A DNA stretch of 64,000 nucleotides. It comes from an uncultured Candidatus Poseidoniales archaeon (GTDB lineage: Archaea; Thermoplasmatota; Poseidoniia; Poseidoniales; Thalassarchaeaceae). The notes under the pieces were generated by a model. The model was given only the letters and a program-made list of their open reading frames with translations. It was not told where the DNA came from and did not search any database. Location: the NCBI GenBank assembly GCA_902593945.1, contig CACJKA010000006.1, forward strand, positions 1-64,000, in the 5' to 3' direction. Below are positions 494-6,195 of this stretch, piece after piece (position 1 is the stretch's first letter; the number at the start of each line of letters is the position of its first letter). The translations under genes and the position numbers were made by a program.

Positions 494-1681
494 TTAATCG
501 AATCTTTGCAGTCCACGATTTTCTTGATTTGTGGCCTTTCTAGCGATATTTAGGGCTTCTCCAAGCATATCTGCACTGATTAATTGGCCATCTAATCTCT
601 TATTTGCCACACCTGTAATGATTGACATGACCTTGATTGTGTCTCCAAATGCTGGATCATGCCTTGCACCAAATATTACTTGAGCCGATGGAGATAACTT
701 TGATGTCATCAAATCACAGACCTGATTTGCTTGTTCCAGAGTCATGTATGGACCTCCAGTAACGTGAATCAAAGCACCAGTTGCTCCTTCAATATCAATA
801 TCTAATAATGGATGATTTAGAGATTCATGAACTACTTCTTCAGGTCCTTGATCTGACTCACCGTAAAGCATCATAGTAACTCCGCCTCCTTTCATTATTG
901 TTCTAACATCAGCAAAGTCAAGATTAATCAGACTAGGTAGTGTAATTGTTTCTACAACTCCCTTTACAATTTCTGCAATAAGTTGGTCCATTATACTAAA
1001 TGCTTCATCAAGAGGCATATTTGGTACGAAATGTAACAACCTATTGTTGTCTAGAACAAGAACTGCATCTGTTTCTTTCTCTAGTAGCTTGAGCCCTTCT
1101 AGAGCTCGATTCATTCTTTGCCTTCTTTCTACATCAAAAGGAGTTGTCACGATTGCGACAACCAAGGCCCCTGCACGCCTTGCTTCTTCTGCCACAATCG
1201 GAGCAATTCCTGTGCCGGTTCCCCCTCCCAATCCGGCAGTAACGAAAACCAAGTCAGCACCAGTGACTATTTTCGATATTACATCACGTCCTGCTTCGGC
1301 GCATCTTCTACCCATTATTGGGTCGCCTCCTGCTCCAAGTCCGCGTGTAATGTGTCTACCTACTAGCAATTTCTGCATTGCTCTTGTATGATCTAAATGT
1401 TGCTTATCAGTATTTATTGCAACTGTAATAGCTCCTTCAACTCCGATATGAGTAATTCTATTCATTGTATTATTTCCAGATCCTCCACAGCCACAAACCA
1501 GTATTCTTGGGTCTGGAGTTCCGAACGATTCTAACTCTCTATCGCGTAGTGCAGTTTGGGTTCTCTCGGACGATTGAGGGCGCTCATTTACACCAACTGA
1601 ACTATGAGGTACTCCTGTCATATTATCCCCCGCGCATCCCGGCATTCCTGCCTTACAATTCTTCATTGGTCTTCTTAGCAT
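494..1681 (-). CDS. ftsZ: Cell division protein FtsZ (tubulin/FtsZ GTPase); true start may be downstream of the ORF start
   Basis: Tubulin signature AGLGGGTGTGIAPIVAEEAR, N-terminal G-box CGCGGSGNNTMNRI, NxDxxD-type LINLDFADVRTIM. Confidence 0.95.
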   Translation of the reverse strand: MLRRPMKNCKAGMPGCAGDNMTGVPHSSVGVNERPQSSERTQTALRDRELESFGTPDPRILVCGCGGSGNNTMNRITHIGVEGAITVAINTDKQHLDHTRAMQKLLVGRHITRGLGAGGDPIMGRRCAEAGRDVISKIVTGADLVFVTAGLGGGTGTGIAPIVAEEARRAGALVVAIVTTPFDVERRQRMNRALEGLKLLEKETDAVLVLDNNRLLHFVPNMPLDEAFSIMDQLIAEIVKGVVETITLPSLINLDFADVRTIMKGGGVTMMLYGESDQGPEEVVHESLNHPLLDIDIEGATGALIHVTGGPYMTLEQANQVCDLMTSKLSPSAQVIFGARHDPAFGDTIKVMSIITGVANKRLDGQLISADMLGEALNIARKATNQENRGLQRFD

Positions 1682-1834
1682 TATTAACAGTTGAGGATAA
1701 TCTTAGGGTCGAGAGGCCGATTATCGTAGTAGATTATCAGAACCAAAATCATTTTTTTTAAAGATAATTTTTTTGCATTTTTCGAGTTGCGACCGGAAAT
1801 TGACATAAGTAAAAGGTCGCTCGAAGGCTCTGTC

Positions 1835-1938
1835 CCGCGCTTAGCTCAGTTGGCTAGAGCACCTGACTGTAGACTGGAAACACATGGTTGTAGGCAGCCA
1901 TCAGGGGGTCCCCGGTTCAAGTCCGGGAGCGCGGACCA
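1835..1938 (+). tRNA. tRNA-Tyr(GTA) with encoded CCA and a ~27-nt intron (about 1873-1899) at position 37/38
   Basis: Perfect 7-bp acceptor CCGCGCT/AGCGCGG; D-arm GCTC-AGTTGGCTA-GAGC; anticodon stem CCTGA/TCAGG with CT-GTA-G; T-arm CCCGG-TTCAAGT-CCGGG. Junctions fold as a bulge-helix-bulge: 3-nt bulges AGA and CCA around the helix CTGT/GCAG. Confidence 0.93.
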
Positions 1939-1941
1939 AAA
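1912..1941 (+). repeat. Direct repeat copy 1 (3' end of tRNA-Tyr): CCGGTTCAAGTCCGGGAGCGCGGACCAAAA
   Basis: Exact 30-nt match to 2602-2631; offset is 690 bp. Confidence 0.9.
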
Positions 1942-2010
1942 TCATCATCTCATCCCAACAAGATTGATAGATAACCGATAAGTTTGAGTCAGCAGAAAAT
2001 GTCTAAAAAA

Positions 2011-2036
2011 TTATAAATATAAAAATTTTGGAGGAT
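2011..2036 (+). promoter_or_regulatory. TATA-like box (TTATAAATATAAA) and GGAGGA ribosome-binding-like motif upstream of the 164-aa ORF
   Basis: Direct reading of ttataaatataaaaattttggaggatttATG. Confidence 0.35.
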
Positions 2037-2038
2037 TT

Positions 2039-2533
2039 ATGCCCATAGATCCAACAAGAAGAATTTCTGGTCCTTATGCACCAAAAAGAGATTCAGCAGA
2101 TATTGAAAAAGCTAGTGTATCAGCATCACATAATACACCCAGGTCAAAACTTCTGTCTAATTTCAATGCCGTACAGAATATGACGGTTGGCGAATTTATT
2201 AAAAGACCCCCTGCTGGATTTATTATCCCTTCGACTTGGCGAGATGGCCTAGACGAAATGAAGTTTATACTGGTACACGATAAGGAAGATGGATTTGTAT
2301 ATCACATCACTATCAAAGGCGATAGTGGAGGAAATGATTACAACTTACACTATCATCTCCACTATTGGAGACAGTACTGTAATGGCAGCCGACACGCAGC
2401 AGAGCATAACGATCTGCCGAAGCGAATGGTATGGACAGACACAGAGCGACAATCTAGAAAGGCAAACTACACGAACCCGATTCGTGCAGCCTTACAAGAA
2501 TTAGGATTTAACACTGCAGAGAAACTTGAATGA
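2039..2533 (+). CDS. Hypothetical protein (164 aa), orphan cargo ORF
   Basis: ORF with ATG preceded by ggagga; no recognised domain. Confidence 0.7.
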   Translation: MPIDPTRRISGPYAPKRDSADIEKASVSASHNTPRSKLLSNFNAVQNMTVGEFIKRPPAGFIIPSTWRDGLDEMKFILVHDKEDGFVYHITIKGDSGGNDYNLHYHLHYWRQYCNGSRHAAEHNDLPKRMVWTDTERQSRKANYTNPIRAALQELGFNTAEKLE

Positions 2534-2569
2534 TCTCTGCTATTAGAAAAACTGTGTCGAAATCTCCTT

Positions 2570-2594
2570 CAGTAAGAGAAATGGTTCCTTACTG
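2570..2594. other. Inverted repeat CAGTAAG-N11-CTTACTG beside the downstream tRNA-fragment repeat (possible terminator or recombination-arm site)
   Basis: Perfect 7-bp stem located 8 nt upstream of direct repeat copy 2. Confidence 0.45.
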
Positions 2595-2601
2595 CTGGAC
2601 T

Positions 2602-2631
2602 CCGGTTCAAGTCCGGGAGCGCGGACCAAAA
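2602..2631 (+). repeat. Direct repeat copy 2: isolated tRNA-Tyr 3' fragment, attachment-site-like
   Basis: Exact 30-nt match to the tRNA-Tyr 3' end, with no matching 5' half, D-arm or anticodon arm upstream. Confidence 0.9.
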
Positions 2632-2724
2632 CACTATACTGAGTACAAATCCGTCAACTTTGCTGTTCATTGTCTTAGATATAGACTCATAAAGGGGTGG
2701 CAAGTCGGCGACTCGCTACGAGGG

Positions 2725-3315
2725 ATGAAGGTGGGAGTAACAAAGTACGTACGTTCGGCTTGGAAGAATCCAAAGCAAAGCATGGAACCCCGTCATAGGA
2801 CAGGTAGAATGGCAGAATGGCGCCACCAACCAGTCTTCCAAAGAATCGACAAACCTACTCGTATTGATGCGGCTCGTCGCGTCGGATACCGTGCTAAGCA
2901 AGGTGTTGTAATTTGTAGAACTCGTGTTCGCCGAGGTGGACTTCGTAAAGGTGTAGTAAACATGAAGCGTAAACCATCAAAAGCTGGTGTAACAAAAATT
3001 ACTATGGCTAAGTCAATTCAGAGAATCGCTGAAGAGCGTGTTTCTCGCAGATATCCAAATCTTAGAGTGCTTAACTCATACTGGGTTGGAGAAGATGGAA
3101 AGAACAAGTTCTTCGAAGTTATCCTTCTAGATCCAAATCATCCAGTTGTTAAGGCAGATAGTCAATGGTCTTGGATTACAGAGAATCACCAGAAGGGTCG
3201 CGCTATGCGTGGTATGACAAGTGCTGGAAAGCGTGGCCGTGGTTTGTACAACAAGGGTAAGGGTGCTGAGAAACTCCGTCCTAGCCTAAATGCTAACAAA
3301 AACCGTGGTAAATAA
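2725..3315 (+). CDS. rpl15e: 50S ribosomal protein L15e
   Basis: L15e-like MKVGVTKYVRSAWKNPKQ...RRVGYRAKQGVVICRTRVRRGGLRK...; the real start is internal to the ORF at 2725. Confidence 0.93.
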   Translation: MKVGVTKYVRSAWKNPKQSMEPRHRTGRMAEWRHQPVFQRIDKPTRIDAARRVGYRAKQGVVICRTRVRRGGLRKGVVNMKRKPSKAGVTKITMAKSIQRIAEERVSRRYPNLRVLNSYWVGEDGKNKFFEVILLDPNHPVVKADSQWSWITENHQKGRAMRGMTSAGKRGRGLYNKGKGAEKLRPSLNANKNRGK

Positions 3316-3365
3316 GTAAGTTTCAGCCGAAGGTTGATTTCACTTGAGCCTGCGGCTTGCATCCA

Positions 3366-3626
3366 ATGGTCGAGTTAGACATGAGTTCTGTTCGTGGTCT
3401 TCCAGTGATTATTCCAGATGGAAGAGTCCTAGGAACAGTACATGATACAGTGATTTCTGCCGAATCAGAATCATGGTCTTGTACCCATTTATTTGTTTCA
3501 GATCCTCCTGCAAGTATAGTCGAAGGTAGAATACATGTAGCAATACCTTGGAACTGGGTAAAATCTATTGGAGATGTTGTGGTTTTACGTTGGTTTCCTC
3601 AGACTCCAATACCTAAAAAACCCTAA
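3366..3626 (+). CDS. PRC-barrel-like small protein
   Basis: Pattern SVRGLPVIIPDGRVLGTVHDTVIS...IPWNWVKSIGDVVVL resembles archaeal PRC-barrel proteins; start at 3357 (TTG) or 3366 (ATG). Confidence 0.6.
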   Translation: MVELDMSSVRGLPVIIPDGRVLGTVHDTVISAESESWSCTHLFVSDPPASIVEGRIHVAIPWNWVKSIGDVVVLRWFPQTPIPKKP

Positions 3627-3693
3627 TTATTGATGATGCAACTATACACGTAATCACAATACGATTCAAAAAGGGAAAGTTCACGCTAAGCCA

Positions 3694-6195
3694 ATGCGTA
3701 GAGTCTCGTCAGCCATTTTGATTGTTCTTCTTCTCTCTCTAGCAAGCCCTTTAGTTTCTGCTGATTCTAAAGGTATCATTGGTTGTACTAGTGCAGATTT
3801 AGACATGATGCCAGCGAGTTGGGAGATATCTGATCAGTCTTGTGTGACTATAGATTTCCAGGAAGTATTGTCTCCTGGTACAACATTTTCATTTGAGATA
3901 GACTCAGATGAAGATATTGATATTTTACTATTCACAGCAAATGCAAGAACAACTTATCAGAATGAGCAGAATTACAGAACAGATTTGATTTGGGAAGAAG
4001 ATTCTGTCTTCGAATCTTTTTCTGGACAGGGTTCTTGGCATTGGACTGTTCCAGATGAAGGGCAATCAACTCGATGGTACATGGTAATTGATAATTTAGC
4101 TCATCCTCAAGATAATGGTCAGGGCGCTCAAGGAGGAAGTGTAGCGAATGTAATAATGAACGTTGAACAGGTTGTGGCTCCTGCTTTTTCTTTGATAGAT
4201 ACGATTGTTCGTTTGGATACAAATGATCACCAAGTTGTAGCTGGTCCTTTCTCTTTAGACCAGGGCAGTCAACTTTCTATTGATGTGACTACAATGGAAG
4301 GTGGTCCTGATATATTCTTGATGACAGAGGAACAAAAGAACACCTATGAATCTGCAGTTGCAAATGGTACAGTTGCAGCATCTAGAATAAATCAAGCAGA
4401 TTTACTCGCAGTAACTAGTTCTGGTAGCACAGTTTGGTCAGCAGGGCCTCAGTATTCTGGGATTCCTCTATACTTAGTTGTGGATAATCGTGCAGGTGCA
4501 GGCGGAGCAGGAACAAGCAAAGTGGCAACTACTGTGGTGTCTTACCTCACACCTGTTGTTCAAGTGATTCTAACCGATCCAGACTCTTTGACCGTTGTTG
4601 ATGTTGGGGCGACTATGACATTGGATGCCAGCAATACACCAAATCTTTCCAATCAAATATCTAGTATTAATTGGGATACAGACGGCGACGGGTTTGATGA
4701 TTATTCTGGTGAAACTATTGAATTATCTTGGCTAATTCCAACAAATTTCACATTAAAGGTTACAGCAGTATCTACCGATTCACGAAGTTCTACCATATTC
4801 AAAGACATAGAAGTTAGAGATATCTCAAATCCTTCTGCTAGCATTGATATTAACTCGGATATAACACGCGGATATGGTGAAAATATTGTCTTGAGTGGCC
4901 AATTCTCAGATAACTGGGAGGTTTCAACCGTAGAATGGTTAGTTGATGATTTAGTTATGGAGTCTTATTCTGGCACCGATCCCTCTGCTACTTCCTTTAC
5001 TCATGTATTCGACTCATCCTACATATCTGGGCTTCATACAATCACTCTCAGAGTTACAGACAAATCAGGATTAGTAACTGATGATGTCGCTAACATAAAT
5101 TTGTATGACCCCACACCTCCTAAAGTAGACTCCGATTTCGTCACTGAACTGCAAGTTGTAGTCAACCAAGCTTATCCTTTCTCAGTCCCAGCAACTGATC
5201 CTGAATCAACGAATCTAATTTACAAATGGGATTTCAATAGAGATATTGATTCAGATAATGACGGAATAACTTCTAATGATAACGAAGGAGTAGGTCCAAC
5301 AGTAGTTCATCCTTTTTCAGAGCCAGGAATTTTTTGGGTAGTTTGTACTATTCAGAATGATGAGGGATTAACTACTGAAGCAGAGATTCTAGTGACAGTT
5401 ATTTCCGCAGATTCTGGTTCAGATGGAATTGATTGGTTGAATATTATTGTAATTTTAGTTGTAATCTTAGTTGTAATGGCATTAATTGGTTTGGTAACAG
5501 TAAGAGTACTAGAAAATAGAAAAATCGCAGCAATGTTAGCTGAACAAGCGGAACAAGAAGTTGAAGAAAATGTGGCACCCCCATCTGTTGACGAGCAGAA
5601 AGCAATGTGGGGAGGAGCGGGAATTAATCAAGTGAGTCCGCTCTCTCAAGCAACTGTAGGTAATCAATACGGTGGTTATTCTTCAGGAATGTCCGGTTTA
5701 CCAACTCCGCCGCCGTCCGGTTCCCCTACTTCTCCTGTAGAGATGGATCCTGATTTGTCAGAATTACTCAGTTCGTCCCCTCCACCAACATCTGCCCCTG
5801 TTAATAGTCCTGCTAATGACTTACTTGCAGCATTTGAAGAAGACGATGCAGTTCCTAGAGAAGATATTCAACACGATTTTGATTCTTCTGAGAATTCTGA
5901 AAATGTTTGGAAACCTTCTGAAGATCCACTAGAAGGCATTTCAGCGCCAGTTTCTGAGGTAGTAGAAGCACCTGATTTTGAGCCAGAACCGGAACCAGAA
6001 CCAGAACCGGAACCTGAATCAGAACCGGAGCCTGAACTAGAACCAGAACCGGAGCCACCTTCACAAAATCGTACAGTTAGAAATTCATGTTCAAGTTGTG
6101 GGAAATTGTTTGAAGTCGATATGCCAGTAGGTGTTGATGTTGCTAGAACATCATGTCCACATTGTGGGTCAATTGAGACAATACGTTTTGAGTGA
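3694..6195 (+). CDS. Secreted, membrane-anchored PKD/Ig-like protein with cytosolic Glu-Pro-rich linker and C-terminal zinc ribbon
   Basis: Signal peptide (SAILIVLLLSLASPLVSA), PKD-like repeats (INWDTDGDGFDDYSG; YKWDFNRDIDSDNDG), one TM (WLNIIVILVVILVVMALIGLVTV), EPEPEP tract, CSSCGK...CPHCG. Confidence 0.85.
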   Translation: MRRVSSAILIVLLLSLASPLVSADSKGIIGCTSADLDMMPASWEISDQSCVTIDFQEVLSPGTTFSFEIDSDEDIDILLFTANARTTYQNEQNYRTDLIWEEDSVFESFSGQGSWHWTVPDEGQSTRWYMVIDNLAHPQDNGQGAQGGSVANVIMNVEQVVAPAFSLIDTIVRLDTNDHQVVAGPFSLDQGSQLSIDVTTMEGGPDIFLMTEEQKNTYESAVANGTVAASRINQADLLAVTSSGSTVWSAGPQYSGIPLYLVVDNRAGAGGAGTSKVATTVVSYLTPVVQVILTDPDSLTVVDVGATMTLDASNTPNLSNQISSINWDTDGDGFDDYSGETIELSWLIPTNFTLKVTAVSTDSRSSTIFKDIEVRDISNPSASIDINSDITRGYGENIVLSGQFSDNWEVSTVEWLVDDLVMESYSGTDPSATSFTHVFDSSYISGLHTITLRVTDKSGLVTDDVANINLYDPTPPKVDSDFVTELQVVVNQAYPFSVPATDPESTNLIYKWDFNRDIDSDNDGITSNDNEGVGPTVVHPFSEPGIFWVVCTIQNDEGLTTEAEILVTVISADSGSDGIDWLNIIVILVVILVVMALIGLVTVRVLENRKIAAMLAEQAEQEVEENVAPPSVDEQKAMWGGAGINQVSPLSQATVGNQYGGYSSGMSGLPTPPPSGSPTSPVEMDPDLSELLSSSPPPTSAPVNSPANDLLAAFEEDDAVPREDIQHDFDSSENSENVWKPSEDPLEGISAPVSEVVEAPDFEPEPEPEPEPEPESEPEPELEPEPEPPSQNRTVRNSCSSCGKLFEVDMPVGVDVARTSCPHCGSIETIRFE
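5980..6057 (+). repeat. Hexanucleotide GARCCN tandem tract encoding (EP)n
   Basis: gagccagaaccggaaccagaaccagaaccggaacctgaatcagaaccggagcctgaactagaaccagaaccggag. Confidence 0.85.

Follow-up and report, generated by a model that had tools for sequence, protein, structure and literature searches.

The 690-bp segment that separates the tRNA-Tyr gene from rpl15e in an uncultured Candidatus Poseidoniales archaeon is very probably a site-specifically integrated unit at the tRNA 3' end, lacking an integrase and derived from integrative elements of the Thalassarchaeaceae. The site is empty in the closest relative, the attachment site is exactly duplicated, the ends of the unit are shared with integrase-bearing elements, and the same tRNA gene is occupied in further relatives. 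We read the unit as a non-autonomous, integrase-less derivative within an accretion hotspot at tRNA-Tyr. The window analysed here comprises the first 64,000 nucleotides of contig CACJKA010000006.1, and the gene order at the locus is ftsZ, tRNA-Tyr, an orphan ORF and rpl15e (Table 1).

Table 1. Features of the tRNA-Tyr locus in the window.
Feature	Coordinates	Strand	Basis
tRNA-Tyr with intron, the attachment site (attL once integrated)	1835..1937	+	Rfam RF00005
Copy 1 of the 30-nt repeat, the tRNA 3' end	1912..1941	+	
Inserted unit, 690 bp; true boundary anywhere inside the repeat	1942..2631	+	Absent from G001, contiguous alignment across the site
Relic of the integrase gene 3' tail, left end common to integrase-bearing elements	1942..1972	-	Alignment versus G008, G045
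Putative A+T-rich TATA-like stretch and GGAGG motif preceding the ORF	2011..2034	+	Read from the sequence
164-aa ORF, orphan cargo gene	2039..2533	+	Coding signal; no homologue
Right arm common to integrase-bearing elements	2547..2601	+	Scores 60-85, shuffles <=26
attR, made up of the core CTGGACTC-CGGTTC-AAGTCCGG and the tRNA 3' end that was displaced (copy 2, 2602-2631)	2595..2631	+	
rpl15e, once adjacent to tRNA-Tyr	2725..3315	+	PF00827 2e-73; tRNA-Tyr neighbour in G001

Repeat structure and empty site

The initial annotation had proposed an exact 30-nt duplication of the tRNA-Tyr 3' end, and this was recovered: positions 1912-1941 and 2602-2631 are identical and spaced 690 bp apart. Such a repeat is not due to chance, because a reversed control pattern with up to 3 mismatches gave 0 matches in the sets of 98 and of 148 whole genomes. 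The first copy belongs to an intact intron-bearing tRNA gene (Rfam RF00005 match at 1835-1935, 56.4 bits). ARAGORN reported no tRNA at this locus, and the intron is probably the cause. The second copy had been described as lacking a tRNA 5' half; the Rfam tRNA search detected nothing there, and an element arm lies to its left. The identity had also been said to end on both sides. To the left of copy 2 the edge is less sharp (GGACT versus GGTCC; 33 of 35 nt are alike between 1907-1941 and 2597-2631), since that side is an attP-type arm. The mechanically listed rpl15e ORF reaches into copy 2, and the conserved L15e protein begins at about 2725.

Among the 98 relatives searched, the closest, G001, holds a single copy of the repeat and no ORF, and its tRNA-Tyr gene stands directly before the rpl15e leader, as the initial annotation had predicted for a relative lacking the insertion. 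What comes after tRNA-Tyr in G001 corresponds, in the window, to the sequence downstream of copy 2. Window positions 780-1941 (96.2% identity) and 2602-5459 (91.7%) align to adjoining stretches of G001 with collinear flanks, and the L15e proteins of the two genomes are 100% identical. As these flanks are contiguous in G001, tRNA-Tyr and rpl15e were once neighbours and were split apart by the addition of 690 bp, which agrees with the earlier suggestion that 1942-2631 is an att-bounded insertion. Marks of a tRNA-targeting integrative element, or of a derivative of one, include the tRNA 3' end repeated in direct orientation at each border and an empty site in a close relative, and both are present here. 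The same ORF standing without the repeat in relatives would have spoken for a different history; the ORF occurs in none of the other genus members searched and in 0 of 340 genomes of the class.

Ends of the unit and att core

Both ends of the unit resemble those of integrase-bearing elements at tRNA-Tyr, as expected of an integrative element or its derivative. The 55-nt right arm scores 60-85 against G008, G010, G045, G004 and G102, and 1000 shuffles for each comparison reached at most 26. The left-end match is short, about 31 nt. It aligns with the 3' tail of the integrase gene in G045 (score 42; best of 1000 shuffles 31), G008 (36; best shuffle 24) and G122 (30; best shuffle 23), and the score of 25 against the G010 tail alone was equalled by one shuffle and is not significant. 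With left and right ends shared, the unit has both ends of an integrase-bearing element whose inside has been deleted or replaced. It holds a single ORF without an integrase match, in agreement with the initial annotation. We therefore class the unit as a non-autonomous derivative rather than a complete element. A point against its proposed origin is that the window's own genome, only 65% complete and in 35 contigs, yielded no integrase of this family.

The displaced copies share a core with the consensus CCGGACTT-CGGTTC-AAGTCCGG, in which CGGTTC of the tRNA T arm is flanked by mutually inverted repeats; the tRNA gene has GGTCCC on the left. The majority read CGGACTT-CGGTTC-AAGTCCGG, often with one extra C at the left. 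The position before CGGTTC is T in most displaced copies and C in the window, a departure that counts against the proposed origin but is shared by G173 and G179. As the T before CGG remains with the far copy, the exchange takes place to its right. Inverted arms are expected of a tyrosine-recombinase core, and we infer that the integrase would bind here.

By the mechanism that we propose, the tyrosine recombinase of the parent element would join the inverted-arm core around CGGTTC to the tRNA-Tyr gene. The incoming element would provide a new tRNA 3' end and displace the old one to the far side. In the window unit the integrase and other element genes would have been lost, leaving one cargo gene between the two att sites, together with the 55-nt right arm and an integrase tail of about 31 nt. 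It is presumably this integrase family that catalysed the insertion in the window.

Occupancy of tRNA-Tyr in related genomes

Displaced copies of the tRNA 3' end were found in 14 of 148 genomes of the family, including that of the window, and number 16 in all (reversed pattern, 0). Within the genus the site is empty in G001, filled by the present unit in the window, by an integrase-bearing element in G008, and by several units in G010 and G004. Such variable content at one tRNA gene in related genomes, bounded by tRNA-end repeats, is characteristic of an additive flexible genomic island. Tyrosine recombinases (PF00589) adjoin tRNA-Tyr in G010, G045 and G008, and a fourth is present in G122; the two ends of the G008 element lie on two contigs.

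The tandem array of G010, a single-cell genome (Poseidoniales archaeon AG-319-P11), begins with an 8.0-kb unit after tRNA-Tyr that encodes a tyrosine recombinase (PF00589), the integrase gene terminating in the tRNA 3' end. It continues with an att copy, a 3.8-kb integrase-less unit with ABA4-like and fasciclin proteins, another att copy, more DNA and rpl15e. Integrase-less units between att copies also occur in G004 (2.9 kb, flanked by two displaced copies of which the outer one is degenerate), in G167 and G173 (2.7 kb, a single gene for a phosphodiesterase-like membrane protein) and in G091 of a sister family (576 bp, an ABA4-like gene only). The ABA4-like genes (PF14108) in the units of G010, G004 and G091 (L068:7294-7755, L134:368-829, L076:2429-2890) lie beside carotenoid-type genes, as read by eye from their neighbours.

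The right arm of the integrase-bearing elements is adjoined by an inward-pointing gene (L068:8145-8897, L074:4187-4945, L066:5715-6506) whose conserved protein, about 250 aa long (MIRFN.DTERKLKEDLANVGK), has no Pfam match. Neither this protein nor the element integrase has relatives in viral contigs, and the displaced site used as a pattern matched nothing there, neither a free attP nor a circular form. There is accordingly no sign that the parent element is a virus. G008 carries a second integrase (L138:7358-8668), 43% identical, directly after another tRNA gene whose anticodon, CTG by eye, points to tRNA-Gln; its left end is similar (TCATCATCCTC...ATCCAGCAAGACGGGTGGATG). The integrase family may thus have more than one tRNA target, to judge from this neighbourhood.

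A TPR-protein gene after tRNA-Tyr or an att copy (loci L183, L179, L188, L266-L269, L271 and L073) was considered as a further cassette and rejected, as five loci read downstream hold no right-hand att. Copies at this position span three genera at 91-99% identity, and most copies elsewhere show 77-89%.

The cargo gene

The 164-aa ORF is probably a real gene, as indicated by its codon preference, its rarity in shuffled sequence and the GGAGG immediately upstream of its ATG. Its own frame scores 0.11 bits per codon and the other five -0.44 or lower; the host codon signature is weaker than in the long ORFs of the window (0.33 bits per codon). Markov shuffling of the insert yielded an ORF of this length in 0.13% of cases. 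The GC content (42%) is similar to that of the flanks.

No homologue of the protein was found in the 98 relatives, in the class-wide set of 340 genomes (where the best match had an E of 0.001 and ran across broken frames), in viral contigs, genome contigs, phages or plasmids, or in Pfam, PHROGs, NCBIfam and PDB sequences. An identification as LmuC by PADLOC (E 0.009, 13.9 bits) was too weak and was discarded. AlphaFold run without an alignment gave a pLDDT of 44.

Origin and mobility of the unit

Three findings are relevant to whether integrase-less units at this site move. The ABA4-like proteins borne by the units of G010 and of G091 are 90% identical while the neighbouring FtsZ is 73% identical, and ABA4-like proteins encoded on the chromosomes of the genus share about 60% identity with the unit-borne protein of G010. 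Two contigs of G173 (L180 and L181) share 4133 bp at 99.86% identity, covering the tRNA and the unit, and diverge precisely where the att copy ends; one continues into a TPR-protein gene and the other into rpl15e. They probably stem from two strains, G173 being a draft assembly with 6% contamination. Contigs of G011, G022 and G041 (L071, L145, L146) stop at the tRNA-Tyr att or no more than 2 nt from it, as can happen in assemblies at polymorphic sites, and may reflect polymorphic insertions in the respective populations. Other integrase-less units at tRNA-Tyr thus appear to have been gained, lost or transferred, which does not by itself make the unit of the window mobile.

The initial annotation had left the choice between a decayed remnant and a minimal element mobilised in trans. 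This choice is narrowed and not settled by the ends of an integrase-bearing element being kept without its integrase and by the gain, loss or transfer of other integrase-less units. That the unit is a dead remnant, in which a full integrase-bearing element inserted and was later mostly deleted, leaving an immobile piece with the ORF as surviving cargo, has a chance somewhat short of even. An integrase tail and a right arm left without the intervening genes are consistent with it, and archaeal elements are known to lose their integrase after integration (PMC8371274). Against it stand the two att sites and two ends that are still recognizable, the open ORF with its coding signal, and the behaviour of the other integrase-less units at tRNA-Tyr.

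We give a similar standing, just below an even chance, to a cassette integrated as a small circle by the integrase of a co-resident element and mobile whenever such an element is present. Several different integrase-less one-gene units at tRNA-Tyr, the array with an integrase unit in the single cell G010 and the close similarity of the ABA4-like unit between families argue for it. It is opposed by the lack of a circle in viral contigs, of a second occurrence of the unit, and of an integrase in the 65%-complete genome. We put the chance that excision of the unit, or its movement in trans, is still possible at about even.

A simple tandem duplication of part of the tRNA gene, or an error of assembly, is highly improbable and was rejected, although copy 2 is a piece of tRNA and the genome is incomplete and split into 35 contigs. 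An element arm and not a tRNA lies left of copy 2, the flanks are collinear with G001, and many genomes, including one from a single cell, show the same arrangement.

Comparison with known systems

Cis-mobilizable elements (CIMEs) of ICE families are deletion derivatives that keep both att sites and cargo, lack a recombinase and accrete beside complete elements; they originate from conjugative elements. The integrase-less unit of the window resembles them in having both att sites and cargo without recombination or conjugation genes. It may differ from CIMEs in its origin, as conjugation genes were not recognized in this system: among the proteins scanned from the G010 element, none matched a Pfam family related to conjugation, and several had no Pfam match at all.

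Additive islands at a tRNA target with tRNA-end repeats are known in bacteria (PMC10872708, PMC4119200). In Ca. Methylopumilus, fGI-2 ranges upward in size from 330 bp and a single CDS (PMC10872708), and the cassettes of Alteromonas fGI1 are present or absent by strain (PMC4119200). The tRNA-Tyr locus shares with both the variable DNA at a fixed tRNA gene and the tRNA-end repeats, but it lies in an archaeon and at tRNA-Tyr, with an identified integrase family and core, named one-gene units and an empty site. For archaea, tRNA targets, tyrosine recombinases, integrase loss and tandem integration have been described (PMC8371274, PMC6563490). The smallest cryptic integrated element in Thaumarchaeota measures 2.6 kb and carries an integrase (PMC6563490), whereas the units of 690 bp and 576 bp reported here are integrase-less and belong to another phylum.

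Integrons and gene cassettes have been reported in archaea too (PMC9668308). The one-gene units at tRNA-Tyr are like integron cassettes in having one recombination site each and being stacked in one place. Unlike in integrons, the site is a tRNA T arm, a tRNA-targeting integrase is borne by some of the units, and there is no integron platform; against the XerA_Arch model (integron integrase/XerA) the element integrase scored 24.6 bits with a cut-off of 220.

Charybdis clade P integrates beside tRNA genes in Poseidoniales by an acquired integrase and holds both structural and accessory modules within about 4.6 kb (PMC12324425). Tycheposons of Prochlorococcus span 4-200 kb with a recombinase (PMC10872708 for Methylophilaceae). 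The former has tRNA-adjacent integration and the order in common with the window unit; the latter share the marine setting, the tRNA association, the tyrosine recombinase and cargo. Unlike either, the window unit is 690 bp long, with a single gene unrelated to Charybdis and no integrase. The literature on tRNA-gene islands and integrases, as far as it was covered, holds no description of a tRNA-Tyr hotspot in Poseidoniales, which with partial coverage is weak evidence of absence.

Implications for marine group II archaea

The locus is ordinary in its mechanism and unusual in its size and setting, and integration is about as well established as sequence alone permits. The small unit of the window belongs to a larger gene-collecting hotspot at tRNA-Tyr, and integrase-less units of 0.6-0.7 kb are easily missed by searches for larger islands or integrase genes. 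Members of marine group II are abundant, have not been cultured, and gain genes in ways that are poorly known. Such gain could be traced in existing ocean metagenomes at this locus, where the att core is defined, an integrase family is identified, the site occurs both empty and occupied, and one-gene units are at hand. We tentatively posit, as a possibility well below even, that tRNA-Tyr in Poseidoniales is a standing capture site, where integrases that come with larger elements insert one-gene cassettes with a core of about 22 bp, stack them, remove them and pass them between genera and families. If so, an ordinary pair of tRNA and integrase would provide integron-like gene exchange, and the unit of the window would be one of the smallest cassettes.
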